From Streptomyces sp. HUAS 15-9 (GTDB lineage: Bacteria; Actinomycetota; Actinomycetes; Streptomycetales; Streptomycetaceae), in NCBI RefSeq assembly GCF_025642155.1, contig NZ_CP106798.1, forward strand, positions 3,844,001 through 3,908,000: 64,000 bases of DNA. Direction: 5' to 3'. Below the pieces are notes generated by a model. That model saw only the letters and a list, made by a program, of their open reading frames with translations. It made no database searches and was not told the DNA's origin. This document shows, in pieces, positions 4,903 through 53,875 of the stretch; position 1 is the stretch's first letter; every line of letters starts with the position of its first letter. A program made the position numbers and the translations under genes.

Positions 4903-4944
4903 CTGACTGTCCGTCAGATTAGCTGTAGCCTGACGCCCTGTCAG
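4903..4944. promoter_or_regulatory. Two operator palindromes between the ligase and thiolase genes
   Basis: CTGACTGTCCGTCAG at 4903-4917 and CTGACGCCCTGTCAG at 4930-4944 fit CTGAC-N5-GTCAG. They lie in the 80-bp divergent intergenic region, one next to each start. The same palindrome stands before seven other catabolic promoters in this window. Confidence 0.75.
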
Positions 4945-4976
4945 CAGACAGTGACCGCCCCGGAGGTGTACACAGC

Positions 4977-6179
4977 ATGGCTGGAGGATCGGGAGGGTCT
5001 GGGGGATCGAGAGGGTCCAGAGGATCTGGAGCAGCCGGCATCAAGGACGCCACCGCCATCGTCGGCATCGGGCAGACGGCCTTCGCCAAGCGCCTCCCCG
5101 AGGACGAGCGGACCCTCGCCTGTCGTGCCGTCCTCGCCGCCCTCGACGACGCCGGGATCGACCCCGGAGAGGTCGACGCGCTCGCCTCCTTCACCATGGA
5201 GGAGACGGACGAGGTCGAGCTCGCCAAGGCCCTCGGGCTCGGGGATCTCACCTTCTTCAGCAAGGTCGGCTACGGAGGGGGCGGCTCCTGTGCCACCGTC
5301 GCGCACCTCGCCGCCGCCATCGCCGCCGGGCAGGCCACCGTCGGCGTCGCCTGGCGCTCACGCAAGCGCGGGAGCGGGCCTCGGCCGTGGACCAACACCG
5401 CCGTGCAACTGCCCACGCCCGCCCAGTGGACCCGGCCCTTCGGGCTTCTGAGGCCTGCCGACGAGATCGCCATGCTCGCCCGCCGTTACATGCACGAGTA
5501 CGGCGCGACCCGGGACCATCTCTTCAACGTCGCCCTCGCCTGCCGCAACCGCGCCAACCAGAACCCCGCGGCGATCATGTACGAGCGGCCCCTGACCCGC
5601 GAGATGTACATGACCGCCCGCTGGATCAGCGAGCCGCTCTGCCTCTACGACAACTGTCTGGAGACGGACGGGGCGTTGGCATGCGTGGTCGTCTCCGCCG
5701 AGCGGGCGCGGGACTGCCGGCGGGCGCCCGTGTACGTCCACTCCGCCGCCCAGGGGCTGCCCGCCCAGCACCACGGCATGGTCAACTACTGGAACGACGA
5801 CCCCCTCACCGGCCCCGCCTGGACCGCCGCCCGCCACCTGTGGAAGCACGCCGACCTCACCCCCGAGGACGTGGACGTCGCCCAGATATACGACGCGTTC
5901 ACTCCGCTCATACCGCTGTCGCTGGAGGGCTACGGCTTCTGCGGGAAGGGAGAGGGCGGGGCGTTCACCGAAGGGGGCGCCCTGGAGATCGGTGGACGGT
6001 TGCCCCTCAACACGGGGGGAGGCGGGCTCTCCGAGGCGTACATCCACGGCTTCAACCTCATCAACGAAGGCGTGAAGCAACTGCGCGGGACCAGCACCGC
6101 CCAGGTCCCGGGCGCCTCCACCTGCCTGGTCACGGCAGGCGAGGGAGTTCCCACGTCCGCTCTCCTGCTGAGGAGTTGA
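4977..6179 (+). CDS. Ltp2-like thiolase-superfamily protein (lipid-transfer type)
   Basis: 400 residues. ATG 4977 has GGAGGTG at 4961-4967. After an unusual Gly/Ser/Arg-rich leader of about 20 residues, the thiolase fold begins at DATAIVGIGQTAF. Diagnostic segments include YDNCLETDGALACVV, QIYDAFTP, GFCGKGEGGAF and LNTGGGGLSEAYIHGFN. This is the SCP-2 thiolase/Ltp branch, in which Ltp2 acts as a retro-aldolase that removes a side chain from a steroid CoA thioester together with a DUF35 partner. The next gene, 6 bases downstream, encodes exactly such a DUF35 protein. Role by family and neighbour; substrate unknown. Confidence 0.85.
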   Translation: MAGGSGGSGGSRGSRGSGAAGIKDATAIVGIGQTAFAKRLPEDERTLACRAVLAALDDAGIDPGEVDALASFTMEETDEVELAKALGLGDLTFFSKVGYGGGGSCATVAHLAAAIAAGQATVGVAWRSRKRGSGPRPWTNTAVQLPTPAQWTRPFGLLRPADEIAMLARRYMHEYGATRDHLFNVALACRNRANQNPAAIMYERPLTREMYMTARWISEPLCLYDNCLETDGALACVVVSAERARDCRRAPVYVHSAAQGLPAQHHGMVNYWNDDPLTGPAWTAARHLWKHADLTPEDVDVAQIYDAFTPLIPLSLEGYGFCGKGEGGAFTEGGALEIGGRLPLNTGGGGLSEAYIHGFNLINEGVKQLRGTSTAQVPGASTCLVTAGEGVPTSALLLRS

Positions 6180-6185
6180 CCTCCC

Positions 6186-6605
6186 ATGCTCTCTCCCGTC
6201 ACCGATGCCGACGGCGCCCCCTTCTGGGAGTACGCCGCCCGAGGCGAGCTGCGCGTCCAGGCGTGCGCCGACTGCGGCGAGCCCCGCTTCCCGCCCCGCC
6301 CCTGCTGCCCGCACTGCCGGTCCTTCGCCTGCGAGTGGCGGCCGACGAGCGGGCGGGGGCGCATCTGGTCGTACGTCCGTCCTCATCCACCACTGCTGGC
6401 CGGCTACGCGGAGCTGGCGCCGTACAACGTCATCCTCGTCGAGCTCGACGAGCTGCCCCGGATACGGATCGTCGGGAACCTCGTCAGTGGAGCCGGCGCC
6501 TCGATCAACTCCGTTCCGGAGAGCCGGATCCGGGTCGGGGCCCGGGTGCAGGTCGTCTTCGATCCCGGCAGCGGGCTCCCCCAGTGGGTCCTGGAGCGGC
6601 CATGA
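6186..6605 (+). CDS. DUF35 OB-fold zinc-ribbon protein (ChsH2 C-terminal-like)
   Basis: 139 residues. An N-terminal helix is followed by a rubredoxin-like zinc ribbon, CADCGEPRFPPRPCCPHC around residues 30-47, then an OB fold with GRIWSYVRPHPP and a beta-rich tail. Such proteins bind Ltp-type thiolases; in mycobacterial sterol degradation the equivalent domain of ChsH2 holds Ltp2 in an aldolase complex. It lies directly after the thiolase and overlaps the next gene (ATGA at 6602-6605), which implies co-translation. Confidence 0.85.
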   Translation: MLSPVTDADGAPFWEYAARGELRVQACADCGEPRFPPRPCCPHCRSFACEWRPTSGRGRIWSYVRPHPPLLAGYAELAPYNVILVELDELPRIRIVGNLVSGAGASINSVPESRIRVGARVQVVFDPGSGLPQWVLERP

Positions 6606-7384: not shown

Positions 7385-7396
7385 CGCGCGAGCCGG

Positions 7397-7999: not shown

Positions 8000-8023
8000 G
8001 CCGTCACCCTACCGACAGGGGGC

Positions 8024-10402
8024 CTACGTCGTACGGGCGGTGCCCGTCCCCTTCTCGGCGTCCAGGGCGTAGACACAGCGGTCCTTGCTGCACGCGTACA
8101 CGACCCCGTCCTTCACGACGGGCGATCCGGTGATCTCGCCGCCGGTCGCCAGCTTCCAGCGCAGGCGGCCGTCGTCGGCCTTGAGGGTGTAGAGCAGGTG
8201 GTCGGTGGAGCCGAAGTGGATACGGCCCTCGGCGACCGCGGGGGCGCCGACGATGTCGCCGCCCGACTGGAAGCGCCACTTGGGCGTGCCCGTGACCGCG
8301 TCGAGCGTGTACAGGCCCTTGCCGCTGCCGACGTGGACATGGCCCGCGGCCACCAGGACCGGCTCGATGGAGGCGCGGGACTCGGTGGCGATGCGCCAGC
8401 GGTCGCGGCCGTCGGTGGCGTCGAGGGCGTACACGGTGCCGAGGTAGTCGGCGAGGTAGATGCCGCCGCCGGTGACCGCGGGGCCGGGGACGAAGGTGGG
8501 CGCGCAGAGGAAGACCGCGGGGGCCTCGAAGTGCCAGCGCACCATGCCGCTCGCCACCTCGATGGCCAGGACTCTGGAACCGGCCGAGACATAGAGGTAG
8601 CCGTCGGACGCCTGGGTGAGCCGGACCGGGACCCCGCCGCAGGACGCGGCGTCGCCGATCGGGTACGACCAGCGCTCCTCGCCGGTGCGGGCCTCCAGGG
8701 CGCGCAGCCGGGCGTCCTGCCAGACGTAGACCGTGCCTTCGTGGACGGCGGGTCCGGCCTCGGGGGACTCGAAGTCGGTCTGGCAGCCGGTGATCTCCCA
8801 GAGCTTCTGCCCGTTGGAGGCCTCCCATGCCTGCACGCCGCCGCCGCGGGTGCCGGTGACGACCGTGCCCCGGTCGGCGTGCAGGGAGTACACCCAGGCC
8901 TCGGTGGACAGCCGCCACAGATCGGCACCCTCGCGGGCCTCCAGGGCGAACAGGGTGGGGCCGTCGGAGGCGTGGATACGGCCGTCCGCGACCGCCATCG
9001 ACCAGGCCACGTCGCGGGTCTTGAAGCGGCGCCGGCCGGTGGCCACGTCCAGGGCGTGCACCTCGAAGGAGGTGACGTAGACGAGGTCGCCGTCGACGGA
9101 CGGGGTGCCCCAGACGTCGTTGGACATGCGGAAGCGCCAGGGGCGCCAGCCGGACGCCGTCTCTGGGGGTACAGCCGGGGGCGCCGGTACGGCCGGGCCT
9201 ACGGCAGGGTCTGTGCCGTTGACGCCGGGGCGGGGGCGGGACCAGTTGGCGACCAGGCCGGCCTCCGGCGGGGTGCCTTGACGGCGGCGGCGCGGGCGTC
9301 GGCGACGCGCGGGCCGGGGCCGATGGGCACCTTGGCGCGTAGCCAGCTGGACGGGACCGGCGTCGGGGCCGCCGGCGGGCGCGCCGACCGGCACGGGCGG
9401 GGCCGCGATCAGCGGGTCGTGCGGCGGGGGGCGGCACCCCGGGCCCGTGTGCGGGTGCCGCGCCCCGGCCGCCGCTGCGCGGCCGGCGGGCGCGGGCTTG
9501 GCCGCCGGGCGGCCGCCGCGGCGGGACTCGATCAGGGCGACGGCCTTCTCGGGCAGCCACGCCGACGCCGTACCGCTGTCGTCGGAGCCGGAGCCGAAGA
9601 GGTGGGGGGCGAGCTGGGCCTGGAGGTCGGCGGGGTTGGGCCGGCCGGTGGCCTCCATCTGCATCAGGGACTCGATCAGCGGGCGCAGCTCGTCCGGGAG
9701 GCCCTCCAGGTCGGGGCCCTCGCGCAGCAGCATGAAGACGGTCTCGACGGGGTTGGCGCCGTGGAAGGGCGGGTGTCCGGTGGCGGCGAACACCAGCATC
9801 GAGCCGAGCGAGAAGACATCGCTCGCGCCGGTGACGCTGCGGGAGTCCTTCGCCTGCTCGGGAGACATATAGGCGGGTGTACCGACGGCCACGTTCGTCA
9901 TCGTCAAACGGGTGTTCGAGACGCCGGACGCGATACCGAAGTCGATGACGCGGGGACCGTCCTCGACGACGAGCACATTGGAGGGTTTGAGGTCCCGGTG
10001 GACCAGCCCGGCGCCGTGGATGGACTGCAGGGCCTCCGCCACGCCCGCCGCCAGCCAGCGCACCGCCTGGGCCGGGAGCGGCCCGCAGTCGTTCACTATT
10101 TCCTCGAGGGAGGGCGCGGGCACGTACGCGGTGGCCAGCCAGGGCACGGCGGCGCGCGGGTCGGCGTCCACGACCGCGGCCGTGTAGAAGCCGGAGACCG
10201 CGCGGGCCGCCTCCACCTCACGTGTGAAGCGGACGCGGAACAGCTGGTCCTCGGCGAGCTCGGTCCGGACCGTCTTGATCGCCACGCGCCGGCCGGACGC
10301 CGAGCGCGCGAGATAGACGAGCCCCATACCGCCGGCACCCAGCCGTCCCAGCACCTCGAACGGCCCGATCCGCCGCGGGTCGTGCTGCGTCAGCTGATCC
10401 AC
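8024..10402 (-). CDS. Ser/Thr protein kinase with C-terminal PQQ-type beta-propeller
   Basis: About 792 residues from GTG 10402, which has GGGGAGGTGG upstream. The Hanks-type kinase domain spans residues 10-270: LGRLGAGGMGLVYLA, VAIKTV, catalytic HRDLKPSNVLV, DFGIA and GTPAYMSPEQ. A Pro/Arg-rich linker follows, then from about residue 420 seven or so PQQ-like blades (VYALDATDGRDRWR, LYTLDAVTGTPKWRF, CVYALDAEKG). I see no transmembrane segment, so the propeller is probably cytoplasmic, unlike PknD-type receptors. In the linker, 9274-9333 reads better in another frame (see findings). Targets and ligand unknown. Confidence 0.9.
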   Translation of the reverse strand: MDQLTQHDPRRIGPFEVLGRLGAGGMGLVYLARSASGRRVAIKTVRTELAEDQLFRVRFTREVEAARAVSGFYTAAVVDADPRAAVPWLATAYVPAPSLEEIVNDCGPLPAQAVRWLAAGVAEALQSIHGAGLVHRDLKPSNVLVVEDGPRVIDFGIASGVSNTRLTMTNVAVGTPAYMSPEQAKDSRSVTGASDVFSLGSMLVFAATGHPPFHGANPVETVFMLLREGPDLEGLPDELRPLIESLMQMEATGRPNPADLQAQLAPHLFGSGSDDSGTASAWLPEKAVALIESRRGGRPAAKPAPAGRAAAAGARHPHTGPGCRPPPHDPLIAAPPVPVGAPAGGPDAGPVQLATRQGAHRPRPARRRRPRRRRQGTPPEAGLVANWSRPRPGVNGTDPAVGPAVPAPPAVPPETASGWRPWRFRMSNDVWGTPSVDGDLVYVTSFEVHALDVATGRRRFKTRDVAWSMAVADGRIHASDGPTLFALEAREGADLWRLSTEAWVYSLHADRGTVVTGTRGGGVQAWEASNGQKLWEITGCQTDFESPEAGPAVHEGTVYVWQDARLRALEARTGEERWSYPIGDAASCGGVPVRLTQASDGYLYVSAGSRVLAIEVASGMVRWHFEAPAVFLCAPTFVPGPAVTGGGIYLADYLGTVYALDATDGRDRWRIATESRASIEPVLVAAGHVHVGSGKGLYTLDAVTGTPKWRFQSGGDIVGAPAVAEGRIHFGSTDHLLYTLKADDGRLRWKLATGGEITGSPVVKDGVVYACSKDRCVYALDAEKGTGTARTT

Positions 10403-10550
10403 CACTTGCCTGCCACCTCCCCGTACGGGCCACGTCACCCACATATGTACGCGACCCCGTGCAGCGTCTCACCACCGCACCGCCGTGGCGGCACGCACCC
10501 CGATTCTTCCTGGCCCGGACGCAGGTTGCGAACCCGGTGATAAATCGGGG

Positions 10551-11305: not shown

Positions 11306-11427
11306 GCCGCCAAAGTAGCGGCGCCGCGCGCACCCCGCAGACCAGGCACACCACTCTCCGTACCCCCATGCACCCCATTTGCAGTCGGCCGAATCGCGCT
11401 CCCATCACCCCTCGGTAAGCTGACGGC

Positions 11428-12075
11428 ATGACAGGACAAGTGCGTACCGTCGACGGCCGCGTGGCCGGTCGACGTGGGCAGGCGACCCGGCAGAAGCTGC
11501 TCGACTGCCTCAGCGAGATGCTCAGCTCCTCCCCCTACCGGGACGTCAAGGTCATCGATGTCGCCCGGAAGGCGGGCACTTCGCCCGCGACCTTCTACCA
11601 GTACTTCCCGGACGTCGAGGGCGCCGTCCTGGAGATCGCCGAGCATATGGCCGCCGAGGGCGCCGGGTTGACCGCGCTGCTCGAAGGGCGTTCCTGGGTC
11701 GGCAAGGCAGGCTGGCAGACCGCCCAGGAACTGGTCGACGGATTCCTGGAGTTCTGGCGCAGGAACGACGCGATCCTGCGCGTCGTCGACCTCGGCGCGG
11801 CCGAAGGGGACAAGCGGTTCTACAAGATCCGCATGAAGATCCTGAATTCGGTGAACAACTCCCTTTCGGACTCCATTGCCGAACTCCAGTCCAAGGGCAG
11901 GATCGACAAGGACGTGAACCCGGCGGCGGTCGCGGGCTCGCTGGTCGCGATGCTCGCGGCGGTGGCCGCGCACCAGAAGGGCTTCCAGACCTGGGGCGTC
12001 AAACAGGCCGAACTAAAGCCGAATCTGGCGCTGTTGGTGCACCTGGGCGTGACCGGCAAGAAGCCGACGAAGTAG
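11428..12075 (+). CDS. TetR-family transcriptional regulator
   Basis: 215 residues. The N-terminal helix-turn-helix at residues 15-60 is clear: RQKLLDCLSEML, VKVIDVARKAGTSPATFYQYFPDVEGAVLEI. The long C-terminal ligand-binding domain is helical (ELVDGFLEFWRRNDAILRVVDLG) and ends in a Lys-rich tail. It stands alone, divergent from the VOC gene. None of the CTGAC-N5-GTCAG palindromes lies in its own promoter region, so it is not the obvious repressor of the catabolic regulon in this window, though that cannot be excluded. Confidence 0.9.
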   Translation: MTGQVRTVDGRVAGRRGQATRQKLLDCLSEMLSSSPYRDVKVIDVARKAGTSPATFYQYFPDVEGAVLEIAEHMAAEGAGLTALLEGRSWVGKAGWQTAQELVDGFLEFWRRNDAILRVVDLGAAEGDKRFYKIRMKILNSVNNSLSDSIAELQSKGRIDKDVNPAAVAGSLVAMLAAVAAHQKGFQTWGVKQAELKPNLALLVHLGVTGKKPTK

Positions 12076-13345: not shown

Positions 13346-13822
13346 CTACCTCCGTACGATCCTGAAGATCCGGATCTCCCGCTCCACCCGTGCCTGGTAC
13401 GTCGCATACGGCGGCCAGAACACCAGCAGCGCCTTCCAGACCGCCGCCCGCTCCTCACCCCCGAGGAGCCGGGCCGTGACGGGGATGTCCTCACCCTTCC
13501 AGCTCACCGTGGCATCGGGATGCGCGAGCAGGTTGTGGGTCCAGGCGGGATGGTCGGTCCGCCCGAAGTTGGACCCGACGAGGATCCAGCCGCGCCCGCC
13601 CTCCTCCGGCATACAGGCCAGCGGAGTACGGCGCGGCAGCCCACTGCGGGCACCGGTGGACGTCAGCACCACACCGGGCAGCAACTGTGCGCTGAGCAGC
13701 ACCTTGCCCCGGGTGACCCGGTGGACGGCCCGGTCGAGCACGGGAATGACATGCGGGGCGACTTTCGCGAAGCCCCGCGTGGAGGACACCTTCTGCACCA
13801 GACGCACACCCGGACCGGCCAT
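13346..13822 (-). CDS. F420-dependent nitroreductase-family (Ddn/FDOR-type) protein
   Basis: 158 residues. A split beta-barrel of the deazaflavin-dependent nitroreductase family is indicated by LLTSTGARSG-like VVLTSTGARSGLPRRTPLA, then WILVGSNFGRTDHPAWTHNLLAHPDATV and VTARLLGGEER. These proteins use reduced coenzyme F420 to reduce quinones, enones or nitro compounds. Its start codon overlaps the stop of the acyl-CoA dehydrogenase (ATGA), so the two are co-translated from a promoter with a regulon operator. A role in reducing a double bond of the CoA substrate or in recycling electrons is an inference. Confidence 0.88.
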   Translation of the reverse strand: MAGPGVRLVQKVSSTRGFAKVAPHVIPVLDRAVHRVTRGKVLLSAQLLPGVVLTSTGARSGLPRRTPLACMPEEGGRGWILVGSNFGRTDHPAWTHNLLAHPDATVSWKGEDIPVTARLLGGEERAAVWKALLVFWPPYATYQARVEREIRIFRIVRR

Positions 13823-15012
13823 CAGACTGCCACCTCCCCCCGCTCGAAGAGCCGCGCCGAGTCGGCCGCGCGGGCACGCAGCCGGTGGACCGACCCGAAC
13901 AGCAGCTCGTCCCCGGCGGCCCGCTTGAAGTACAGATGAGCCTCGTGCTCCCAGGTGAACCCGATCCCGCCGTGCAGCTGGATCCCCTCACCGGCGGCCG
14001 TCCGGAGCGCCTCCAGGGCCTGCGCGAGAGCGAGCCCGCCCACCCGCTCACCGCCCCGGACGGCCGTGGCCCAGGCCGCGTAGTAGGCCGCCGAGCGCGC
14101 CGCCTGCACCTGCACATACACATCGGCCAACCGGTGCTTCACGGCCTGGAAGGACCCGATCAGCCGCCCGAACTGCTCCCGCTGCTTCACGTGATCGACG
14201 GTCCGCTCCAGGGCCCGGTCGGCGGCCCCGACGGCCTCGGCGGCAAGCACCGCGGCGGCGGTGTCACCGAGGGCGGAAAGGGCACCGAGCACGTCGGAAT
14301 CGGCCGACCCGAGCAACCGGGCGTCGACGTCGCGCAGTTGTACGCGCCCCTGCGGCCGGGTGGCGTCAAGCGCGGTCTGCCGTACCCGCACCACCCCCGC
14401 CGCGTCCCCGTCCACCAGGAAGAGCAGGGTCCGCGACCGGGCGAACCCCCCGGTGTGGGCGGCCACGACCAACAGGCCGGCACTGTGCCCGTCGAGCACC
14501 TGCCCCACTTCCCCGTACAGCCGCCACCCATCCCCCGCCGGGCCGGCCTGCACACCCCCCGCACGGCCACCGCCGGCCCACTCCCCTCCGTTGTCGCCGG
14601 TCAAAGTCAGTACGGAGGCAAGGGCGTTGCCGGGCACGGCGAGGGTGGCGGTGAGCGCACCCGAGGCGAGCCGGGGCAGCAGGTCGGCGCGCTGGGCATC
14701 GGTCCCGAGGGCGAGGATCAGCGGCGCGGCGAGCACGGAGGTGGCGAGCAGCGGGGTCGGGGCCAGCGCGCGCCCCGTCTCCTCGCAGGCGAGGGCGAGC
14801 TCGGTGACCGAGCAGCCGACCCCGCCGTACGCCTCCGGGAGGGCCAGCCCCGGCAGGCCGAGCTGGTCGGCGAGGGCCGTCCACAGGACAGGGTCGTGCC
14901 CGGCGCCGGTGTCGAGGGCGGTGCGCAGTTCCTCCGGGCCGCAGCGTTTGTGGAGCAGTTCGCGCAGGGTGCGGCGGATCTCGTCCTGCTCGGCGGTGAG
15001 GCGCGTGTCCAT
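13822..15012 (-). CDS. Acyl-CoA dehydrogenase (FadE type, probable heteromer subunit)
   Basis: 396 residues. ACAD fold: N-terminal helices (TAEQDEIRRTLRELL), LPEAYGGVGCSVTELALACEE, C-terminal FAD-binding part REQFGRLIGSFQAVKHRLAD and LHGGIGFTWEHEAHLYFKRA. The middle strand region is divergent and lacks the CQGFSEPxAGSDL motif of the partner type, as in the beta subunits of mycobacterial alpha2beta2 sterol ACADs (ChsE family). No alpha-type gene is adjacent; candidates are at 47258 and 52626. It is the first gene of a leftward pair with the nitroreductase-like gene and has a regulon operator 34 bases upstream. Confidence 0.87.
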   Translation of the reverse strand: MDTRLTAEQDEIRRTLRELLHKRCGPEELRTALDTGAGHDPVLWTALADQLGLPGLALPEAYGGVGCSVTELALACEETGRALAPTPLLATSVLAAPLILALGTDAQRADLLPRLASGALTATLAVPGNALASVLTLTGDNGGEWAGGGRAGGVQAGPAGDGWRLYGEVGQVLDGHSAGLLVVAAHTGGFARSRTLLFLVDGDAAGVVRVRQTALDATRPQGRVQLRDVDARLLGSADSDVLGALSALGDTAAAVLAAEAVGAADRALERTVDHVKQREQFGRLIGSFQAVKHRLADVYVQVQAARSAAYYAAWATAVRGGERVGGLALAQALEALRTAAGEGIQLHGGIGFTWEHEAHLYFKRAAGDELLFGSVHRLRARAADSARLFERGEVAV

Positions 15013-15046
15013 GGCTGTTCCCTCCGGCCCGATCTGACCGCCCGAT

Positions 15047-15134
15047 CTGACGGGCCGTCATGTTAGGGCGAGGAGGCCGGGATGCCCAGAGAGACGACAC
15101 CTGCCACGCCGGACCGAATCTGATGTACCGTCAG
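15047..15134. promoter_or_regulatory. Two operator palindromes between acyl-CoA dehydrogenase and thiolase
   Basis: CTGACGGGCCGTCAT at 15047-15061 and CTGATGTACCGTCAG at 15120-15134. The second ends 4 bases before the ATG at 15139. Both fit the CTGAC-N5-GTCAG palindrome with one mismatch each and serve the divergent pair. Confidence 0.75.
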
Positions 15135-15138
15135 ATCC

Positions 15139-16314
15139 ATGTCACCAGGGAGCAGCAGGAAAGTGGCCGTGGTGGGCGTAGCCCTCTCCGACTGCGGCCG
15201 AGTGGACGAGGCCACCCCCTACGCCCTGCACGCCCAGGCGGCCCGCCGGGCCCTGGCGGACGCGGGCCTGGACCGCGCCCACGTGGACGGCTTCGCCTCG
15301 GCGGGACTGGGCACCCTGGCACCGGTGGAGGTGGCCGAGTACCTGGGCCTGCGCCCCACCTGGGTCGACTCCACCTCCGTAGGCGGCTCGACCTGGGAGG
15401 TCATGGCGGCGCACGCGGTGGACGCGATAGCGGCGGGCCACGCGAACGCCGTCCTGCTGGCCTACGGCTCGACGGCCCGCGCGGACATCCGGGCGGGCAG
15501 ACGCACGGGAAACCTGTCCTTCGGCGCCCGTGGACCACTCCAGTTCGAGGTCCCGTACGGCCACACGCTGATCGCGAAGTACGCGATGGCGGCCCGCCGC
15601 CACATGATCGAGTACGGCACGACGATCGAGCAGCTCGCGGAGGTGGCGGTACAGGCCAGGGCCAACGCGGCCCTGAACCCGAACGCCATGTTCCGCGCCC
15701 CCATCACCCCCGACGACGTCCTCACCGGCCCGCTGATCGCCGACCCCTTCACCAAGCTGCACTGCTGCATACGCTCCGACGGAGGCGCGGCGGTACTGCT
15801 GGCGGCGGAGGAATACGTACGGGACTGCAGAACCCCGCCGGTGTGGGTGCTCGGCACCGGAGAGCACGTCTCCCACGCGGCGATGTCCGAGTGGCCCGAC
15901 TTCACGGTGACACCGGCGGCGGTGAGCGGCCGGCTCGCCTTCGAGCGGGCGGGGGTGAACCCCGGGGAGATCGACTTCGCGGAGATCTACGACGCCTTCA
16001 CGTACATGACCCTGGTGACCCTGGAGGACCTGGGCTTCTGCGGAAAGGGAGAGGGCGGGGCGTTCGTGGAGAAGGGCCGGCTGCTGGTGCGGGGAGGGGA
16101 ACTGCCGGTGAACACGGACGGGGGTGGCCTGTCGGCCCAGCACCCAGGGATGCGGGGCCTGTTCCTGCTGGTGGAGGCGGTACGACAGCTGCGGGGGGAG
16201 GCCGGGGAGCGGCAAGTGCGGCGGGCGGGCGGCGAGTTGCCACGGCTCGGGGTGGCTTCGGGTACCGGAGGCTGGTTCTGCTCGTCGGGGACGGTGGTGC
16301 TGGGGCGGGGATGA
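15139..16314 (+). CDS. Thiolase-superfamily protein, lipid-transfer (Ltp) type
   Basis: 391 residues from ATG 15139; GTG 15163 with GGGAG upstream is an alternative that would start at VAVVGVALSDCG. Same family as the thiolase at 4977: QFEVPYGHTLIAKYAMAARR, LHCCIRSDGGAAVLL, EIYDAFTYMTLVTLEDLGF, GFCGKGEGGAF and VNTDGGGLSAQHPGMRG. No DUF35 gene follows, although most relatives need one; the orphan DUF35 gene at 22818 is regulated by the same palindrome and could supply it. Divergent from the acyl-CoA dehydrogenase at 13822. Confidence 0.85.
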   Translation: MSPGSSRKVAVVGVALSDCGRVDEATPYALHAQAARRALADAGLDRAHVDGFASAGLGTLAPVEVAEYLGLRPTWVDSTSVGGSTWEVMAAHAVDAIAAGHANAVLLAYGSTARADIRAGRRTGNLSFGARGPLQFEVPYGHTLIAKYAMAARRHMIEYGTTIEQLAEVAVQARANAALNPNAMFRAPITPDDVLTGPLIADPFTKLHCCIRSDGGAAVLLAAEEYVRDCRTPPVWVLGTGEHVSHAAMSEWPDFTVTPAAVSGRLAFERAGVNPGEIDFAEIYDAFTYMTLVTLEDLGFCGKGEGGAFVEKGRLLVRGGELPVNTDGGGLSAQHPGMRGLFLLVEAVRQLRGEAGERQVRRAGGELPRLGVASGTGGWFCSSGTVVLGRG

Positions 16315-23245: not shown

Positions 23246-23310
23246 CAGAACCACCTTGCCTCCCCTCCATCAGAACCACCCTGCCTCCCCCCATCAGAAC
23301 CACCCCAGCG
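23246..23310. repeat. Short direct repeat spanning the 3' end of the DoxX-like gene
   Basis: CAGAACCACC followed by a C-rich stretch occurs at 23246, 23271 and 23295 (period 24-25). The first two copies are non-coding; the third contains the stop codon and last codons of the leftward gene. It looks like a local duplication of that gene's end. Confidence 0.7.
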
Positions 23311-23740: not shown

Positions 23741-23744
23741 GAAT

Positions 23745-23759
23745 CTGACGGTACGTCAG
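23745..23759. promoter_or_regulatory. Operator palindrome upstream of the DoxX-like gene
   Basis: CTGACGGTACGTCAG, the most perfect copy in the window: the symmetry extends to ATCTGACGGTACGTCAGAT. It ends 4 bases before the start codon at 23740 and probably controls the DoxX-like and DUF35 genes. Confidence 0.85.
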
Positions 23760-23958
23760 ATCTGGAGGAAAGCCGAGACCTCGTCGAGAATTGGCCGGGC
23801 GGCTACAACCGCGCGCCCACAACCCCGCCGACCCCGCCCACAACCAGGTCGCCTACGTCACCGGTTCCCCCCACTCCTCCTACAGGCGTGATCAATCCGC
23901 AACCAATTCCGACCTTGACCGAGACCCATCAACGTGGGACGTGGTTACGCTCGCGCTC

Positions 23959-29822: not shown

Positions 29823-29863
29823 CTGTTTCTCCCTCCTCCTTCCGGCCGGTCGACCCGTGCGTC

Positions 29864-31941: not shown

Positions 31942-31947
31942 GGCCTT

Positions 31948-34835: not shown

Positions 34836-34907
34836 GCGGAAGGACTCCAGTCGGTGCAAGGAGAGGTGCGGGGAGGCCGGCCGGGCCCGGCGGGCGGAAG
34901 CGGGGTG

Positions 34908-40064: not shown

Positions 40065-40110
40065 ACAAACTCGTCGTACCACTCGTCAACCTTTGCGTGC
40101 AGGACCGTTC

Positions 40111-40149
40111 CTGACGTTGCGTCAATTCAGTAATCTGACACTGCGTCAG
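40111..40149. promoter_or_regulatory. Two operator palindromes upstream of the ADP-forming ligase gene
   Basis: CTGACGTTGCGTCAA at 40111-40125 (last base deviates) and CTGACACTGCGTCAG at 40135-40149, centre to centre 24 bases. They lie 34-72 bases upstream of ATG 40184. Confidence 0.78.
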
Positions 40150-40183
40150 TTAATCGTGCTGTCACACAGGAGCGGGCGGACCG

Positions 40184-42412
40184 ATGCTTGGATCAACCCA
40201 CGGCACCCTCACCACCGACTCCCGCCGGGCCCGGGTCATCGCCTGCGGTGAGCCGCGTCCCGGGCCCGCAGTCCACGGCCGGGCCGCCGACGTCGACGAC
40301 CTCGATGTGAGCGGGCGACCGCTGTATGCGGACGTACCGGATCTGGACCGGTTCTTCCGGCCCGGGTCCGTCGCCGTGATCGGTGCCTCGGACACCGAGG
40401 GACGGCCGAACACCGGGATCACCCGACAACTGCTGGCCTGGGCCGAGCGGGTCGGGGCACGGGTGCACCCGGTGCATCCCACCCGGCCCTCGGTCTTCGG
40501 CATCCCCTGCGTCGCCTCCGTCGCCGACCTGCCCGAGCAGGTCGACCTCGGCGTGCTGCTGGTCGCCGATCCGCTCCCGGTGGTCGAGGAACTCGCCGAG
40601 GCCAAGGTGAAGTTCGCCGTCGCCTTCGCCTCCGGGTTCGCGGAGACGGGCGAGGAGGGGGCCAAGGCCCAGGAGCGTCTCGCCGCCGCCGTCCGGCGCT
40701 CGGGGCTGAGGCTGCTCGGGCCGAACACCAACCTCAACGCGTTTGAGCGGTTCCGCCAGGACCTGGAGGGACCGGCGATCGCCCTGATCACCCAGTCCGG
40801 GCACCAGGGCCGACCGGTCTTCGCCCTCCAGGAGCTCGGCATCCGGCTCTCCCACTGGGCCCCGACCGGCAACGAGGCCGACCTGGAGACCGCCGACTTC
40901 ATCTCCTACTTCGCCGAGCGGCCCGAGGTCGGCGCCATCGCCTGCTACGTGGAGGGCCTCAAGGACGGCCGCGCCTTCCTGCTCGCCGCCGACCGCGCCG
41001 CCCGCCGCAAGGTGCCGGTCGTCGCCGTCAAGGTGGGGCGCACGGAGGCCGGGGCCCGTACCGCCGCCTCGCACACCGGCAAGCTCACCGGGGCCGACGA
41101 CGTCGTGGACGCGGCCATGCGGCAGTTCGGGGTCGTCCGGGTCGACGGGCTCGACGAACTCCAGGACACCGCCGCCCTGCTGGCCCGCGCGCGGGCACCG
41201 CTCGCCGACGGGGTCGTCGTCTACTCCATCTCGGGCGGCACCGGCGCGCACGTCGCCGACCTGGCCGCCGGGGCCGGGCTCAGCCTTCCCGTGCTGTCCG
41301 AGGCGCGGCAGGCCGAGCTGCACCAGTGGATACCCGAGTACCTGAGCGTGGCCAACCCGGTGGACAACGGCGGGCATCCGGTCGGCGACCGGCGCGGCCG
41401 GAAGATCATCGACTCGATCCTCGACGACCCGGACGTGGGCGTGCTGATCTGCCCGGTCACCGGGCCCTTCCCACCGCTGAGCGACCGGCTCGTACGGGAC
41501 CTGGTCGACGCGGCCGAGGCGAGCGACAAGCTGGTGTGCGTGGTGTGGGGTTCGCCGGTCGGCACCGAAGCGGCGTACCGCGAGGTCCTGCTCGGCTCCT
41601 CCCGCGTGGCCACCTTCCGCACCGTCGGCAACTGCCTCACCGCCGTCCGCGCCTACCTCGACCACCACCGCTTCGTCCGCTCCTACCGCTCCCCCTTCGA
41701 CGAGGCCCCTCGCACCCCCTCCCCGTCCTTCAAGAAGGCACGGGCCCTGATGCAGCCGGGGCAGCAGCTGAGCGAGCACGCGGCGAAGCAGCTGCTGCGG
41801 GCGTACGGCATCCGGGTGCCGCGCGAGCAGCTGGTGACCAGCGCGGCGGCCGCCGTACGCGCCGCCGGGCAGGTCGGCTACCCCGTGGTCATGAAGGCGT
41901 CCGGCGCGCAGATCGCCCACAAGACCGAGCTGGGCCTGGTGAAGATCGGTCTGACCTCCGCCAGCCAGGTCCGCGACGCCTACCGCGAGCTGACCGACAT
42001 CGCCCGCTACGAGGGCGTCTCGCTGGATGGCGTCCTGGTGTGCCAGATGGTCGAGCGGGGCGTGGAGATGGTCGTCGGCGTCACGCACGACGCGCTGTTC
42101 GGGCCGACGGTGACGGTCGGTCTCGGCGGGGTGCTGGTGGAGGTGCTGCGGGACGCGGCCGTACGCGTGCCGCCCTTCGGCGAGGAGCAGGCCCAGGACA
42201 TGATCGCGGAACTGCGCGGGCGGGCACTGCTGGACGGGGTGCGGGGGCGGCCACCCGCCGATGTCGACGGGCTCGTCGAGGTCGTGCTGCGGGTGCAGCG
42301 CATGGCCCTTGAACTCGGAAACGAACTCGCCGAGCTCGACATCAACCCGCTGATGGTGCTGCCCCGCGGGCAGGGCGCGGTGGCGCTGGACGCGCTGGCG
42401 GTGTGCCGATGA
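40184..42412 (+). CDS. ADP-forming acyl-CoA synthetase (acetate-CoA ligase family)
   Basis: 742 residues in the fused alpha-beta layout of nucleoside-diphosphate-forming acyl-CoA ligases. Residues 50-170: CoA-binding Rossmann domain (FRPGSVAVIGASDTEG). Residues 190-490: succinyl-CoA-ligase-like domains (ALITQSGHQGRPVFALQELG, GNEADLETADFISYF, SISGGTGAHVADLA). Residues 520-740: ATP-grasp domain (VPREQLVTSAAAAV, VVMKASGAQIAHKTELGLV, LAELDINPLMVLP). It makes acyl-CoA from acid, ATP and CoA with ADP and Pi as products. First gene of an operon with a crotonase (ATGA overlap) behind two regulon palindromes. Confidence 0.88.
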   Translation: MLGSTHGTLTTDSRRARVIACGEPRPGPAVHGRAADVDDLDVSGRPLYADVPDLDRFFRPGSVAVIGASDTEGRPNTGITRQLLAWAERVGARVHPVHPTRPSVFGIPCVASVADLPEQVDLGVLLVADPLPVVEELAEAKVKFAVAFASGFAETGEEGAKAQERLAAAVRRSGLRLLGPNTNLNAFERFRQDLEGPAIALITQSGHQGRPVFALQELGIRLSHWAPTGNEADLETADFISYFAERPEVGAIACYVEGLKDGRAFLLAADRAARRKVPVVAVKVGRTEAGARTAASHTGKLTGADDVVDAAMRQFGVVRVDGLDELQDTAALLARARAPLADGVVVYSISGGTGAHVADLAAGAGLSLPVLSEARQAELHQWIPEYLSVANPVDNGGHPVGDRRGRKIIDSILDDPDVGVLICPVTGPFPPLSDRLVRDLVDAAEASDKLVCVVWGSPVGTEAAYREVLLGSSRVATFRTVGNCLTAVRAYLDHHRFVRSYRSPFDEAPRTPSPSFKKARALMQPGQQLSEHAAKQLLRAYGIRVPREQLVTSAAAAVRAAGQVGYPVVMKASGAQIAHKTELGLVKIGLTSASQVRDAYRELTDIARYEGVSLDGVLVCQMVERGVEMVVGVTHDALFGPTVTVGLGGVLVEVLRDAAVRVPPFGEEQAQDMIAELRGRALLDGVRGRPPADVDGLVEVVLRVQRMALELGNELAELDINPLMVLPRGQGAVALDALAVCR

Positions 42413-44088: not shown

Positions 44089-44171
44089 ACGGCCTTCTGT
44101 GCGTGTCGTTCCCCACCCCATGGGGGCAGCGTACGGGCGGCCTTCCCGGCACCCGCCGTACCCCTTCCCAT

Positions 44172-44186
44172 CTGACGCATCGTCAG
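44172..44186. promoter_or_regulatory. Operator palindrome upstream of the flavin reductase gene
   Basis: CTGACGCATCGTCAG, preceded by AT and followed by CTTC. It ends 5 bases before ATG 44192. Confidence 0.8.
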
Positions 44187-44191
44187 CTTCA

Positions 44192-44812
44192 ATGGGCGGT
44201 GTGATGGGACACGCAGGGATGGCGGCCGCCGCCGTCCGCTACCTCAGGTCGGTCGACGCCCCGCCCCCGGGGCCCGTCGAGGCACTGCCGCGCCCGGAGC
44301 TCAGGTGCGTCGGGGAGGACGAGCGGGCACCGGTCGACCAGGGCGAGTTCCGGCGCGTGCTGGGGCACTTCGCGACCGGCGTGACCGTGGTCACGGCCCC
44401 CGCCGTCGACGGCGAGGACGGCCCCGCGGGCTTCGCCTGCCAGTCCTTCTCCTCCCTCTCCCTCGACCCGCCGCTCGTCGTCTTCATGGTGGGCCGCACG
44501 TCGACGACCTGGCCGAGGATCGCCCGCACGGGCGTCTTCTGCGTGAACGTCCTCGGCGCCCACCAGGGCGAGCTGTGCCGCGGCTTCGCGGTACGCGGCG
44601 CGGACAAGTTCGCGGGCGTCGCATACGGCGCGGCCCCCGTCTCCGGCTCCCCGCGCCTGGCCGGCACACTCGCCTGGATCGACTGCACCGTCCACGCCGT
44701 GCACACCGGCGGCGACCATCTGATCGTCGTGGGCCGGGTGGACGCGCTCGGCACGGCCGACGTGGACACGGCTCCGGCTCCCCTGCTGTTCCACAAGGGG
44801 CGCTTCCTCTAA
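44192..44812 (+). CDS. HsaB-like flavin reductase
   Basis: 206 residues from ATG 44192; GTG 44201 and ATG 44204 or 44219 are in frame and also possible. Flavin-reductase-like FMN-binding fold: FRRVLGHFATGVTVVTAP, GFACQSFSSLSLDPPLVVFM, TWPRIARTGVFCVNVLG and IDCTVHAVHTGGDHLIVVGRV. The wording is close to HsaB, the NADH:flavin reductase that serves the HsaA steroid hydroxylase. No hydroxylase gene is adjacent. It is under a regulon palindrome, so its oxygenase partner may be encoded at another locus of the regulon. Confidence 0.85.
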   Translation: MGGVMGHAGMAAAAVRYLRSVDAPPPGPVEALPRPELRCVGEDERAPVDQGEFRRVLGHFATGVTVVTAPAVDGEDGPAGFACQSFSSLSLDPPLVVFMVGRTSTTWPRIARTGVFCVNVLGAHQGELCRGFAVRGADKFAGVAYGAAPVSGSPRLAGTLAWIDCTVHAVHTGGDHLIVVGRVDALGTADVDTAPAPLLFHKGRFL

Positions 44813-48522: not shown

Positions 48523-49437
48523 CTATTGGGCGTTGGGCCGAGAGCCTGACTGCGCTGCCCTCTCCATCGCCTCCAGCTGGGACAGCATCGGCATGGGATC
48601 CACCCCCACCGACCCAGGCAGAAAGTCGGCAATCCGCTCCGGCGTCCACGCCCCCTCGCAATAGGCCGAACGCAGTTCCCTCGGCTGCGCCCACACCGCG
48701 ATCTTGGGCCCCGCAACGGTGTACACCTGCCCCGTCACCCCCGCCTCGCGGGCCCGCTCCGAGAGCAGATAGACCACCAGCGCGGCCACATCCTCCGGCT
48801 CCCCGATCTCCTTCAGCTCCATCGGAACCCCCGCCGACATCCGCGTACGAGCCACAGGGGCCACCGCATTCGCGCTCACCCCGTACTTGTTCAGGCCCAG
48901 CGCAGCGCTCCGCACCAGCGAGATGATCCCGCCCTTCGCCGCGCTGTAGTTGGCCTGCGACACCGAGCCCTGGTGGTTGCCGCTGGTGAAGCCGATGAGG
49001 GTGCCGGACTTCTGCTTGCGCATGACCGCGGAGGCCGCGCGGAACACCGTGAAGGTGCCCTTGAGGTGGGTGGCGACGACGGGGTCCCACTCCTCCTCAG
49101 TCATGTTGAACAGCATCCGCTCGCGCAGGATCCCGGCCACGCAGACGGCTCCGTCGAGGCGGCCGTACGACGACAGGGCGACGTCGACGACCCGCTGCCC
49201 GCCCGCCATCGTGGAGATGTCGTCGGCCACCGCGACCGCGCTGCCGCCCGCCGCCTCTATCTCCTTGACCACCGCCTCGGCGACCTCGCTGGTCGGTGCG
49301 GTGCCGTCGGTGGACACGCCGTAGTCGTTGACGACGACCCGGGCGCCCTCGGCCGCGGCCGCGAGGGCGACCGCCCGGCCGATGCCCCGTCCGGCGCCCG
49401 TCACGGCGACGACCTTGCCTGCCAAGAAGTTCCCCAC
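48523..49437 (-). CDS. Short-chain dehydrogenase, 17beta-HSD4/Hsd4A-like
   Basis: 304 residues from GTG 49437. NAD-binding TGAGRGIGRAVALAAAAEG, the insertion-rich NDYGVSTDGTAPTSEVAEAV typical of (3R)-hydroxyacyl-CoA dehydrogenases, NMTEEEWDPVVATHLKG, and the active site with Ser in FTSGNHQGSVSQ and YSAAKGGIISLV. Its C-terminus is about 50 residues longer than a minimal SDR. Likely oxidises a 3-hydroxyacyl-CoA in side-chain beta-oxidation. First gene of the leftward operon; a palindrome lies 22 bases upstream, shared with the divergent cyclase gene. Confidence 0.88.
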   Translation of the reverse strand: MGNFLAGKVVAVTGAGRGIGRAVALAAAAEGARVVVNDYGVSTDGTAPTSEVAEAVVKEIEAAGGSAVAVADDISTMAGGQRVVDVALSSYGRLDGAVCVAGILRERMLFNMTEEEWDPVVATHLKGTFTVFRAASAVMRKQKSGTLIGFTSGNHQGSVSQANYSAAKGGIISLVRSAALGLNKYGVSANAVAPVARTRMSAGVPMELKEIGEPEDVAALVVYLLSERAREAGVTGQVYTVAGPKIAVWAQPRELRSAYCEGAWTPERIADFLPGSVGVDPMPMLSQLEAMERAAQSGSRPNAQ

Positions 49438-49459
49438 GCCCGGCCCCTTCCCGCGGTTT

Positions 49460-49474
49460 CTGACGGACCGTTAG
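49460..49474. promoter_or_regulatory. Operator palindrome between SDR and cyclase genes
   Basis: CTGACGGACCGTTAG, one mismatch from CTGAC-N5-GTCAG; outer symmetry TCTGACG/CGTTAGA. It sits between the divergent SDR and cyclase starts. Confidence 0.75.
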
Positions 49475-49522
49475 ATTTTATGGCGCGTCGGACCGTGAAG
49501 GACAAGCCCCGGGGAGGCCCCG

Positions 49523-50449
49523 ATGTCACTGCCGGACGAGTTCCACGACATCGCCAAGCGTGTGAACAACTGGGGGCGTTGGGGAGCGGGCGACGAGATC
49601 GGCACCCTGAACCTGATCACCGACGAGGTGGTCCACGGGGCGGCGGCGGCGGTCCGTACCGGCCGCCGTGTGCCGCTCGCGCTGGCGCTGCGCGAGGACG
49701 GTGTGCAGACCGGGATGATCCCGGGGCGGGTCAATCCGCTGCACGCGATGGTGCAGATCAACCAGGAGATCTTCGGGCCGGGCACGGTGGCGTGCAGCGA
49801 CGACGTGGTGACGATGGGCCTTCAGGCGGCGACCCACTGGGACGCGCTGACCCATGTCTCGCACTCCGGGAAGCTCTACAACGGCCGCCCCGCGCACACC
49901 GTCACCGCGCACGGCGGCGCCGAGTTCAGCGGGATCGACAAGGCGCGGCACATCGTCTCGCGCGGGGTGCTGCTCGACGTGGCACGCGCGCGTGGCGTGG
50001 ACCGGCTCGACGGCGGGCACGCGGTCACCCCGGAGGATCTGGAGGCGGCCGAGGAGTTCGCGGGTACACGGGTGCGGGCCGGCGACATCGTGCTGGTGCG
50101 GACCGGACAGGTCCAGGTGTATCTCGCCGGGGACAAGCACGGGTACGGCTATCCGTCGCCGGGGCTTTCGGTGCGCACCCCGGAGTGGTTCCACGCGCGC
50201 GATGTCGCGGCCGTCGCGAACGACACGCTCACCTTTGAGATATTTCCGCCCGAGATGGAGAATCTGTGGCTGCCCGTGCACGCCCTGGATCTGGTGGAGA
50301 TGGGGATGCTCCAGGGCCAGAACTGGAATCTCGAAGAGTTGTCCACAGCCTGTGGAGAAGAAGGGCGGTACGCGTTCCTGCTGTCGGCGATGCCCGAGCC
50401 GTTCGTAGGGGCGACGGGAACTCCGGTGGCACCGGTGGCCGTTCTCTGA
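49523..50449 (+). CDS. Cyclase-family (KynB-like) metal-dependent hydrolase
   Basis: 308 residues from ATG 49523 with GGGGAGG upstream. Cyclase/KynB fold: NNWGRWGAGDEIGTLNLIT, the metal-binding segment THWDALTHVSHSGKLYNG in place of the classical HxGTHxDxPxH, GVLLDVARARGVDRLDGG, DIVLVRTG and FHARDVAAVANDT. Related enzymes hydrolyse formamides or cyclic substrates. Divergent from the SDR operon and under the same palindrome, so a ring-opening step in the pathway is possible. Confidence 0.85.
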   Translation: MSLPDEFHDIAKRVNNWGRWGAGDEIGTLNLITDEVVHGAAAAVRTGRRVPLALALREDGVQTGMIPGRVNPLHAMVQINQEIFGPGTVACSDDVVTMGLQAATHWDALTHVSHSGKLYNGRPAHTVTAHGGAEFSGIDKARHIVSRGVLLDVARARGVDRLDGGHAVTPEDLEAAEEFAGTRVRAGDIVLVRTGQVQVYLAGDKHGYGYPSPGLSVRTPEWFHARDVAAVANDTLTFEIFPPEMENLWLPVHALDLVEMGMLQGQNWNLEELSTACGEEGRYAFLLSAMPEPFVGATGTPVAPVAVL

Positions 50450-52617: not shown

Positions 52618-52625
52618 GGTGCGTG

Positions 52626-53759
52626 TCACCGCCCCTTCGGCAGTCCGAGGATGCGTTCGGCCACGATGTTCCGCTGGATCTGCGAGGTGCCCGCGGCGAT
52701 GGTGTACGAGAGGGAGGAGAGGCGGTCGAGGACCCAGAGCCGGTCCAGGTCGAGGGACTGGGCGCCGAGTACGGCCGCCGCCGCGTCGTACAGCTCCTGG
52801 CGGGCGTGCGAGTACCTCAGCTTGAAGACGGAGCCGCCGATGCCCGGCACCCCGCCGCCGGCCTCCGCCTCGCTCACGTTCCACTGCGTCAGCCGCCACA
52901 GCGCCCGGAACTCGGCGTTCAGCCTGCCCAGCCGGCGCCGGAGCACCGGATCGTCCCAGCGGCCGTTCTTGCGGGCCTCACGGGCCAGTTCACCCAGGAC
53001 CCGGCGGCAGGCGACCACCTCGCCGACGAAGGCTGTGCCGCGCTCGAAGGACAGCGTCACCATGGTCACGCGCCAGCCGTCGTTCTCGGCGCCCACCCGG
53101 TTGGTCACCGGCACCTGCACCTCGTCCAGGAACACCTCCGCGAACTCCGCCGACCCGGCGAGGGTGCGCAGCGGTCGTACGGTGATGCCCGGCGCGTCCA
53201 TGGGCATGGCCAGCCAGGTGATGCCCCGGTGCTTGGGAGCCGCGGGATCGGTGCGTACCAACAGTTCGCACCAGTCGGCGACTTCCGCGTGGGAGGTCCA
53301 GATCTTGGACCCGCTCACCACGTAGTGGTCGCCGTCCCGCCACGCGCGCGTGCGCAGTGCGGCGAGATCGGAACCGGCGTCCGGCTCGCTGAACCCCTGG
53401 CACCACACCTCGTCGCCGCGCAGCACGGGCGGCAGCCAGCGGGCCCGCTGCTCGGGCGTCCCCTCGGAGGCGATCGTCGGCCCGGCGTGCAGCAGCCCGA
53501 CGAAGTTCGCCCCGACGTAGGGCGCGCCCGCCTGCTCCGTCTCCTCCAGGAAGATCAGCCGTACGGTGGGGGACGCATTCCAATAGACCTCCGCGTACCC
53601 GGCGTCGTACAGCATCCGCTGCCACCCGAGGTCGTACGCGCGCCGGGCCGGCCAGTCGTCGGGGGACGGCTTCGGCGGCAGGCCGGGCAGCACCTCGGCC
53701 AGCCACTCGCGCAGCCGCGCCCGGAAGTCCTCCTCCTCGGGCGTGTACGACAGGTCCAT
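52626..53759 (-). CDS. Acyl-CoA dehydrogenase, alpha (FadE26) type
   Basis: 377 residues from ATG 53759; GTG 53771 in the same frame lies only 4 bases from the operator and is an alternative. Motifs: LSYTPEEEDFRARLREWLA, CQGFSEPDAGSDLAALRTRA, VSGSKIWTSHAEVADWCELL and C-terminal YTIAAGTSQIQRNIVAERILGLP. Full-length FAD-binding subunit; the short beta-type ACAD follows 8 bases downstream and a FadD17-like ligase is divergent. The same trio occurs in mycobacteria as fadE26-fadE27-fadD17 of the sterol side-chain pathway. Confidence 0.9.
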   Translation of the reverse strand: MDLSYTPEEEDFRARLREWLAEVLPGLPPKPSPDDWPARRAYDLGWQRMLYDAGYAEVYWNASPTVRLIFLEETEQAGAPYVGANFVGLLHAGPTIASEGTPEQRARWLPPVLRGDEVWCQGFSEPDAGSDLAALRTRAWRDGDHYVVSGSKIWTSHAEVADWCELLVRTDPAAPKHRGITWLAMPMDAPGITVRPLRTLAGSAEFAEVFLDEVQVPVTNRVGAENDGWRVTMVTLSFERGTAFVGEVVACRRVLGELAREARKNGRWDDPVLRRRLGRLNAEFRALWRLTQWNVSEAEAGGGVPGIGGSVFKLRYSHARQELYDAAAAVLGAQSLDLDRLWVLDRLSSLSYTIAAGTSQIQRNIVAERILGLPKGR

Positions 53760-53775
53760 TCCGGCCCCCACTTAT

Positions 53776-53790
53776 CTGATGTTTCGTCAG
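53776..53790. promoter_or_regulatory. Operator palindrome upstream of the FadE26-like gene
   Basis: CTGATGTTTCGTCAG, one mismatch from consensus, with good outer symmetry (ATCTGATG/CGTCAGAT). It lies 16 bases from ATG 53759. Confidence 0.78.
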
Positions 53791-53860
53791 ATACTCCGGG
53801 TAGGCTAGCCCCGCACCTCTGGACCGACAAGGCGCCCGGCCCTACGCTCTGCCGCACGAT

Positions 53861-53875
53861 CTGACGTGACGTCAG
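53861..53875. promoter_or_regulatory. Operator palindrome upstream of the FadD17-like gene
   Basis: CTGACGTGACGTCAG, a perfect copy containing TGACGTCA. It lies 19 bases from ATG 53895 and 4 bases from an in-frame ATG at 53880. Confidence 0.8.

Follow-up and report, generated by a model that had tools for sequence, protein, structure and literature searches.

The closest described counterparts of the system considered here are two TetR repressors of steroid degradation in actinobacteria. According to passages of the respective papers, KstR represses cholesterol catabolism (PMC1995591) and KstR2 represses the genes for breakdown of the steroid C/D rings (PMC3068626). As described in parts of PMC5380842, the genes regulated by KstR2 include fadD3, acyl-coenzyme A (acyl-CoA) dehydrogenases, a thiolase and ipdAB, its effector is HIP-CoA, and the FadD3 ligase is the pathway entry enzyme in actinobacteria; the same paper cites, by title, a report of HIP metabolites from Streptomyces rubescens. 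In this study, we analyzed a stretch of 64,000 nucleotides from Streptomyces sp. HUAS 15-9 (C1:3844001-3908000 of the genome; hereafter the window), in which the palindrome ATCTGACGNNNCGTCAGAT recurs close to the starts of catabolic genes. With moderate confidence, and on the strength of sequence comparisons, we favor a model in which this palindrome is the operator of a single-copy TetR repressor with a TetR_C_38 domain, encoded at 11428-12075, and the regulon serves the breakdown of steroid or steroid-like rings.

Two further reports bear on this model. A 2016 survey, in the passage concerned, classed 55 of 57 Streptomyces genomes as being without steroid pathways (PMC4810484). SCO4421 of Streptomyces coelicolor, a TetR gene near afsK (SCO4423), is described in passages of PMC3878966 as sporulation-induced and WhiA-dependent; a deletion strain was made, and no mutant phenotype was detected in it.

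Operator sites and the TetR_C_38 gene

The operator palindrome takes a 19-bp form, ATCTGACGNNNCGTCAGAT, with a 15-bp core inside it, and its three central bases vary freely among the window sites. A preliminary description of this DNA had listed 11 sites (4903-53861, counted from the start of CTGAC), all of which are present. They occupy seven intergenic regions rather than the eight it counted, six of them between divergent genes, and its list overlooked a weak twelfth site at 11420, on the start of the TetR gene. When up to three mismatches are allowed, the 19-bp form occurs 9 times in the window against 0.17 expected, and 100 shuffles never gave more than 2; the sites at 4930 and 40111 fall outside these nine. 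Enrichment of the 15-bp core with up to two mismatches is weak in the window (15 against 7.8 expected, with 15 reached by 1 of 100 shuffles). Across the 9.6-Mb genome, the 19-bp form with up to three mismatches is found 78 times, compared with 5 for the reversed pattern. The preliminary description had named a motif equally common elsewhere as counting against its proposal, and this is not what is seen. The corresponding figures are 27 against 3 for the 19-bp form with up to two mismatches, and 123 against 34 for the core with at most one. No paper that prints the motif sequence was found among the open-access papers searched.

A scoring matrix was built from the same 11 window sites, which makes their own scores circular. 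Ten of them score 23-34, the weak site at 4930 scores 15.0 and the one at 11420 scores 14.9, while the rest of the window reaches at most 10.6. A core match with one mismatch at 18566, inside a pyridoxamine-oxidase-like gene, has a matrix score of 7.0 and is probably due to chance. Gene starts were taken from our own codon-usage caller, which was trained on this window and applied to the other genomes too. By these starts, 24 of the 27 genome sites with up to two mismatches fall between 250 nt before and 25 nt after a called gene start, 19 of the 24 being 12-64 nt from the nearest one. One more lies within the first 34 nt of a cholesterol oxidase gene, and those at 84817 and 4864645 are misfits.

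The preliminary description had suggested seeking a TetR-family gene with the site in its own promoter. The probable candidate is the PF19352 (TetR_C_38) gene at 11428-12075, found once in the genome; the weak site at 11420 lies across its start codon. Its product has the TetR_N helix-turn-helix and helical ligand domain of the TetR family, with a palindrome near its own gene. Among the best 120 of 6,162 relatives, the named ones are Streptomyces proteins, 87-97% identical, annotated as TetR or AcrR family regulators or as hypothetical. In seven non-Streptomyces proteins, the arm and helix-turn-helix are 61-80% conserved, compared with 34-56% for the C-terminal (ligand) domain. No paper on PF19352 or TetR_C_38 was found among the open-access papers searched.

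The gene and the site occur together. PF19352 is present in 79 of 100 relatives, including all 61 genomes of the genus, and the 21 relatives without it have 0-3 sites; outside the genus, site counts are higher in the 18 genomes with the gene than in the 21 without it (p 7e-7, a comparison that, like those that follow, ignores shared ancestry). A phylum sample of 296 genomes gave at least six sites in 17 of 25 genomes with a strong PF19352 match (E 1e-20 or better) and in 1 of 271 without one, although both this cut-off and the six-site threshold were set after the tables had been seen, and 9 of the 271 have weak matches. The single genome with at least six sites and no strong match, G351, has a PF19352 match below the cut-off, and outside the genus at least six sites were found in 9 of 13 genomes with a strong match. 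A candidate regulator gene is therefore associated with the site in this genome and its relatives, a point on which the preliminary description had let its proposal depend.

The start-codon site is the same or nearly the same in 30 of 30 genus loci (L036-L065, our own included), with scores of 14.1-15.6; since it overlaps the coding start, this conservation alone is weak evidence. Better own-start sites, scoring 19-23, are found in G088, G086, Frankiales-type metagenome-assembled genomes, Actinomadura xylanilytica and G224. A site scoring at least 13 in the 160 nt that precede the conserved arm occurs in 15 of 24 distinct non-Streptomyces loci, a sample that includes near relatives and leaves out 5 further loci whose arm was not recognised, compared with 4.1% of 1,860 random stretches from the same loci.

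Because the sites lie close upstream of start codons, with one at the start of the regulator itself, simple repression combined with autoregulation is the mechanism that we propose. In this scheme, a dimer would occupy the sites, which lie at gene starts or shortly before them, and so keep the dispersed regulon from being transcribed; at its own start codon, such binding would provide autoregulation. An intermediate, probably a CoA thioester, would then release the repressor from DNA. That this ligand might be a steroid CoA thioester is a guess by analogy with KstR2 and HIP-CoA.

Genes at the sites

The sites of the window, for which no strand is given, and the genes around them are as follows.

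3274..4896 (called start 4881), minus strand: FadD3-family acyl-CoA ligase (NF005801, 796 bits against a cut-off of 657)
4901..4919: operator site 1, between the CoA ligase and a lipid-transfer thiolase; 6 of 6 other Streptomyces retain a site in this region
4928..4946: operator site 2, a weak one scoring 15.0, spaced 27 bp from site 1
4977..6179, plus strand: lipid-transfer-type thiolase, in the region of sites 1 and 2
6186-6605: ChsH2-like DUF35 protein, after the thiolase
6602-7384: enoyl-CoA hydratase, after the ChsH2-like DUF35 gene
8024..10405, minus strand: Ser/Thr kinase with PQQ repeats (by Pfam domains of close relatives), the gene-order link to SCO4421; we take it to be AfsK or AfsK-like
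11418..11436: weak site, AGCTGACGGCATGACAGGA, that overlaps the TetR gene's start codon; score 14.9
11428..12075, plus strand: TetR-family protein with TetR_N and TetR_C_38 (PF19352), the proposed regulator
13346-13822: F420H2 quinone-reductase-like gene, downstream of the next dehydrogenase
13822..15012, minus strand: acyl-CoA dehydrogenase, flanking site 3
15045..15063: operator site 3; 6 of 6 other Streptomyces retain a site in this region
15118..15136: operator site 4, spaced 73 bp from site 3
15139..16314 (called start 15163), plus strand: lipid-transfer-type thiolase, flanking site 4
22818-23231: DUF35 gene, downstream of the DoxX gene
23294..23740, minus strand: DoxX protein, flanking site 5
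23743..23761: operator site 5, a perfect consensus; retained ahead of 4 of 4 DoxX orthologues
23791..25179 (called start 23941), plus strand: flavin monooxygenase-like protein, of uncertain regulon membership
40109..40127: operator site 6, paired with site 7
40133..40151: operator site 7; the 24-25 bp pair with site 6 is kept in 5 of 5 orthologues
40184..42412, plus strand: ADP-forming-type acyl-CoA synthetase, after sites 6 and 7
42403-43200: enoyl-CoA hydratase, following the synthetase
44170..44188: operator site 8; kept in 5 of 5
44219..44812, plus strand: flavin reductase (HsaB-like in the preliminary description), after site 8
47258-48412: acyl-CoA dehydrogenase, downstream of the next gene
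48523..49437, minus strand: short-chain dehydrogenase (SDR), flanking site 9
49458..49476: operator site 9; kept in 4 of 5
49523..50449, plus strand: putative cyclase, flanking site 9
51748-52629: acyl-CoA dehydrogenase, downstream of the next dehydrogenase
52626..53771, minus strand: acyl-CoA dehydrogenase; site at the orthologue in only 1 of 4 relatives
53774..53792: operator site 10; 4 of 4 ligase orthologues are preceded by sites
53859..53877: operator site 11, next to the acyl-CoA ligase
53877..55415 (called start 53895), plus strand: acyl-CoA ligase, flanking site 11

Conservation was assessed in six other Streptomyces, with a region taken as conserved when the orthologue of at least one flanking gene has a site scoring >15. 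By this measure, 34 of 35 region-by-genome cases retain a site, usually at a similar distance from the start. The single miss is the SDR/cyclase region of G038, where a site scoring 29.5 lies inside a gene call that is probably over-long.

Between the regulon clusters (26883-39150), the window also contains two gene pairs with similar sequence starts, 28298-29050 with 26883-28301 and 36896-37666 with 37663-39150. Judged from their translations, they are apparently response regulators and sensor kinases and resemble a duplicated two-component system.

Outside the window, site-bearing genes encode two luciferase-like oxidoreductases, two amidohydrolases, a nitronate monooxygenase, an acyl-CoA dehydrogenase, a thiolase, polyketide-cyclase/START-like, glyoxalase-like and metallo-beta-lactamase-fold proteins, and an aldehyde-dehydrogenase-like protein named from its sequence start only. 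This list covers all 27 sites with up to two mismatches and only some with three, and so is incomplete. The regulon would thus comprise CoA ligases, acyl-CoA dehydrogenases and thiolases that have DUF35 partners, along with an SDR, luciferase-like oxidoreductases, amidohydrolases and a cholesterol oxidase. Together with the co-occurrence of gene and site, the site statistics support the proposal of the preliminary description that a dispersed, acyl-CoA-type catabolic regulon stands under one TetR-type regulator distinct from KstR and KstR2.

The putative regulon reaches a cholesterol oxidase, which links it to sterols. Two overlapping sites lie at the start of its gene, and the protein matches 1b4v, a solved structure of Streptomyces type, at 795 bits. 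At least one site is present in 20 of 20 copies of at least 72% identity, our own included; none of 10 more distant copies has a site at its start, and one of them has a site 252 nt upstream. Proteins encoded near sites with three mismatches at L033:3427-5405 and L034:4335-5039 (C1:2902-2904 kb and 3576 kb) look secreted. Three proteins near the sites in L033 and L034 gave no Pfam match, and the secreted-looking ones are possibly sterol-handling surface proteins. A CoA ligase at L018:15247-16851 presumably resembles the cinnamate/4-coumarate CoA ligase of S. coelicolor, and the 20-kb stretch that holds it (L018) has no site scoring >13.

Across lineages, the families that bear sites most widely are SDR (9 lineages), acyl-CoA dehydrogenase (8), amidohydrolase (6) and the TetR gene itself (6), and outside our own genome a gene start is near 64 of 66 sites; the stretches were chosen for strong sites, which biases the family counts and inflates the 64 of 66.

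The proposed steroid link and competing explanations

The TetR gene and its sites lie inside an ipd-type cluster, the cluster type of steroid C/D-ring breakdown, in G086, G088, three Frankiales-type loci (L086-L088) and Yinghuangia (L097). The IpdA-type CoA transferase of L097 matches 6co6, which we take to be IpdAB, at 327 bits; the G086 and G088 proteins match that of L097, and the L086-L088 proteins were assigned by their sequence starts. Going by gene order in Mycobacterium, ipdB, ipdC, echA20 and an SDR gene are presumably also present in these clusters. A KstR2-like gene is found in 55 of 57 genomes with ipdA (lists compared by eye), and the two exceptions are G086 and G088, in which the TetR_C_38 gene occupies the place expected for KstR2. 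A search for KstR2 gave no match in the genomes of L087 and L088, weak matches in Yinghuangia (35-40% identity), two of 44% in Parafrankia, matches of 50% and 28% in Pseudofrankia, and of 61% (clear) and 44% in Actinomadura.

Within the genus, ipdA was found in 44 of 61 genomes, and site counts follow it, with a median of 23.5 in genomes with ipdA (n 44) and 4 in those without (n 17; p 5e-7). A steroid-associated regulon may therefore be common in Streptomyces. The TetR_C_38 and KstR2 genes are both present in 44 of 44 ipdA-bearing genus genomes. The window holds the FadD3-family ligase, and the translations of genes called in the portion of the Streptomyces ipd region covered here show no evident ligase; a second copy elsewhere is possible. 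Our reading is that two regulators split related pathways in Streptomyces, whereas one does both in Frankiales-type lineages; the regulator of the steroid C/D-ring operon appears to differ between lineages.

Several observations weigh against the regulator, the gene assignments or the substrate that we propose. The own-start site is weak in Streptomyces (14.9), and 9 of the 24 non-Streptomyces loci have no start site, among them L089, L090 and L092, which have one further upstream. Some genomes carry the gene with few sites: G010, G029, G031 and G037 have 2 each, G257 has 1 and G096 has 0. No site lies near the flavin monooxygenase orthologue in 4 of 5 relatives, and the fifth has a weak one (15.9), which makes the membership of this gene uncertain, and the orthologue of the 52626 dehydrogenase lacks a site in 3 of 4; these losses weaken both gene assignments. 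With respect to substrate, three genus members without an ipdA match have 19-26 sites (one of them is only 79% complete), the cholesterol oxidase scores 106 against a cut-off of 850 on the one NCBIfam cholesterol oxidase model that it matched, and amidohydrolases, luciferase-like proteins and DoxX are, to our knowledge, not known steroid enzymes. For Streptomyces, the data do not support control of the ipd genes by this site: 28 of 28 loci have no site (score >15, within 1.5 kb), and the Streptomyces ipd operon has its own KstR2-like gene. In our own genome, a separate ipd-type cluster at G000:C1:2272-2284 kb (L244, L245) has its own KstR2-like regulator, and the new site is absent from it.

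The alternative that best survives accepts the same regulator and operator and differs in the substrate, which would be another cyclic or isoprenoid acid (terpenoid or naphthenate-like), with cholesterol oxidase and the ipd genes as shared downstream steps or side members. We regard it as possible, though doubtful. The window's second ligase has its best NCBIfam match, below that model's cut-off, to cyclohexanecarboxylate-CoA ligase, SDR, acyl-CoA dehydrogenase and amidohydrolase are the families that bear sites in the most lineages, and the 28 Streptomyces ipd loci without a site fit this alternative as well. It accounts less readily for the site at cholesterol oxidase in 20 of 20 close copies and for the position of the regulator inside an ipd-type cluster in both ipdA genomes that lack KstR2.

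It is quite improbable that some other, unlinked regulator reads the site and that TetR_C_38 accompanies the site only through shared ancestry and neighborhood. Such a regulator would be consistent with the presence of the TetR_C_38 gene in every genus genome, whether sites are many or few, and with the weak own-start site of Streptomyces. However, the co-occurrence extends outside the genus over several families, own-start sites are found in several lineages, and the gene-site pair stays while neighboring genes change between lineages.

A reading of the palindromes as terminators of transcription, hairpins or a dispersed repeat, and not as sites bound by a protein, is scarcely credible and, for this genome, unlikely, though possible for G087: the core is found 687 times in G087, often inside genes, but the sites here precede gene starts (24 of 27), their three central bases vary freely, and they keep a similar position relative to the start codon across species.

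G087 also deserves description in its own right. It encodes a TetR_C_38-like protein, and CTGACGNNNCGTCAG with at most one mismatch has 687 copies there, compared with 18 for the reversed pattern (stretches L068, L083-L085, L264-L283 and L304-L323). In a 400-kb sample, 37 of 55 copies are contained entirely within called genes, and a spacer of 3 bp is favored, with 7 perfect copies against 0-1 for other spacers. These 687 core sites, many of them in genes, fall outside what the repressor model explains.

A broader version of our model is more tentative. TetR_C_38 could be a phylum-wide regulator of steroid-type ring catabolism, acting beside KstR2 in Streptomyces and replacing it in Frankiales-type lineages; most Streptomyces, which the survey scored as lacking steroid pathways, might carry a conserved steroid-associated regulon under SCO4421, and the spread of sites in G087 could hint at a genome-wide role.

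Comparison with described regulators

The putative TetR_C_38 repressor resembles KstR2 in that both are TetR proteins with a palindrome in short divergent intergenic regions and a site at their own promoter, as far as passages of PMC3068626 describe KstR2. They differ in operator and in number of sites: the KstR2 motif is AnCAAGnnCTTGnT, with three instances per mycobacterial genome in those passages, whereas ATCTGACGNNNCGTCAGAT has 27 sites with up to two mismatches here. The proteins are also distinct. No KstR2 entry appears among the best 60 of 73 PDB matches (E up to 1) to the TetR_C_38 protein, and its comparison with the genome's own KstR2-like protein, which matches 4w1u at 7e-57, gave only chance matches that were gap-free or of 8 residues or shorter. 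With KstR, as described in parts of PMC1995591, the proposed system shares a large dispersed regulon, a motif at its own promoter, and many sites between divergent genes, sometimes in two copies; the KstR operator, TnnAACnnGTTnnA, is different, and its sequence match to the TetR_C_38 protein is marginal (E 0.14). KstR and KstR2 can thus be ruled out as readers of the site by their differing sequences and, by inspection, operators. AccR of S. avermitilis was also considered as a candidate match. Likewise by inspection, the statement of the preliminary description that the palindrome is unlike the KstR and KstR2 sites holds against the published motifs.

The predicted structure of the TetR_C_38 protein has a typical TetR fold and is closest to EthR; in the model, this fold similarity is specific, standing above that to other TetR proteins, at an identity of about 19%. 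EthR is distinguished by control of an EthA-type monooxygenase, and the flavin monooxygenase gene at 23791-25179 adjoins a site.

SCO4421 is probably the S. coelicolor counterpart of the window TetR gene, as judged from gene order: the locus numbering in the passages of PMC3878966 implies a kinase, one gene and a TetR gene, as in the window. A single paper on SCO4421 was found among the open-access papers searched. Those passages on SCO4421 give no operator or regulon, and our analysis proposes both, together with a likely metabolic role, for a TetR family present in all 61 genus genomes, and with them a function for this orphan gene. From sequence alone, the best reading is that TetR_C_38 would be a third steroid-associated TetR repressor of actinobacteria, besides KstR and KstR2.

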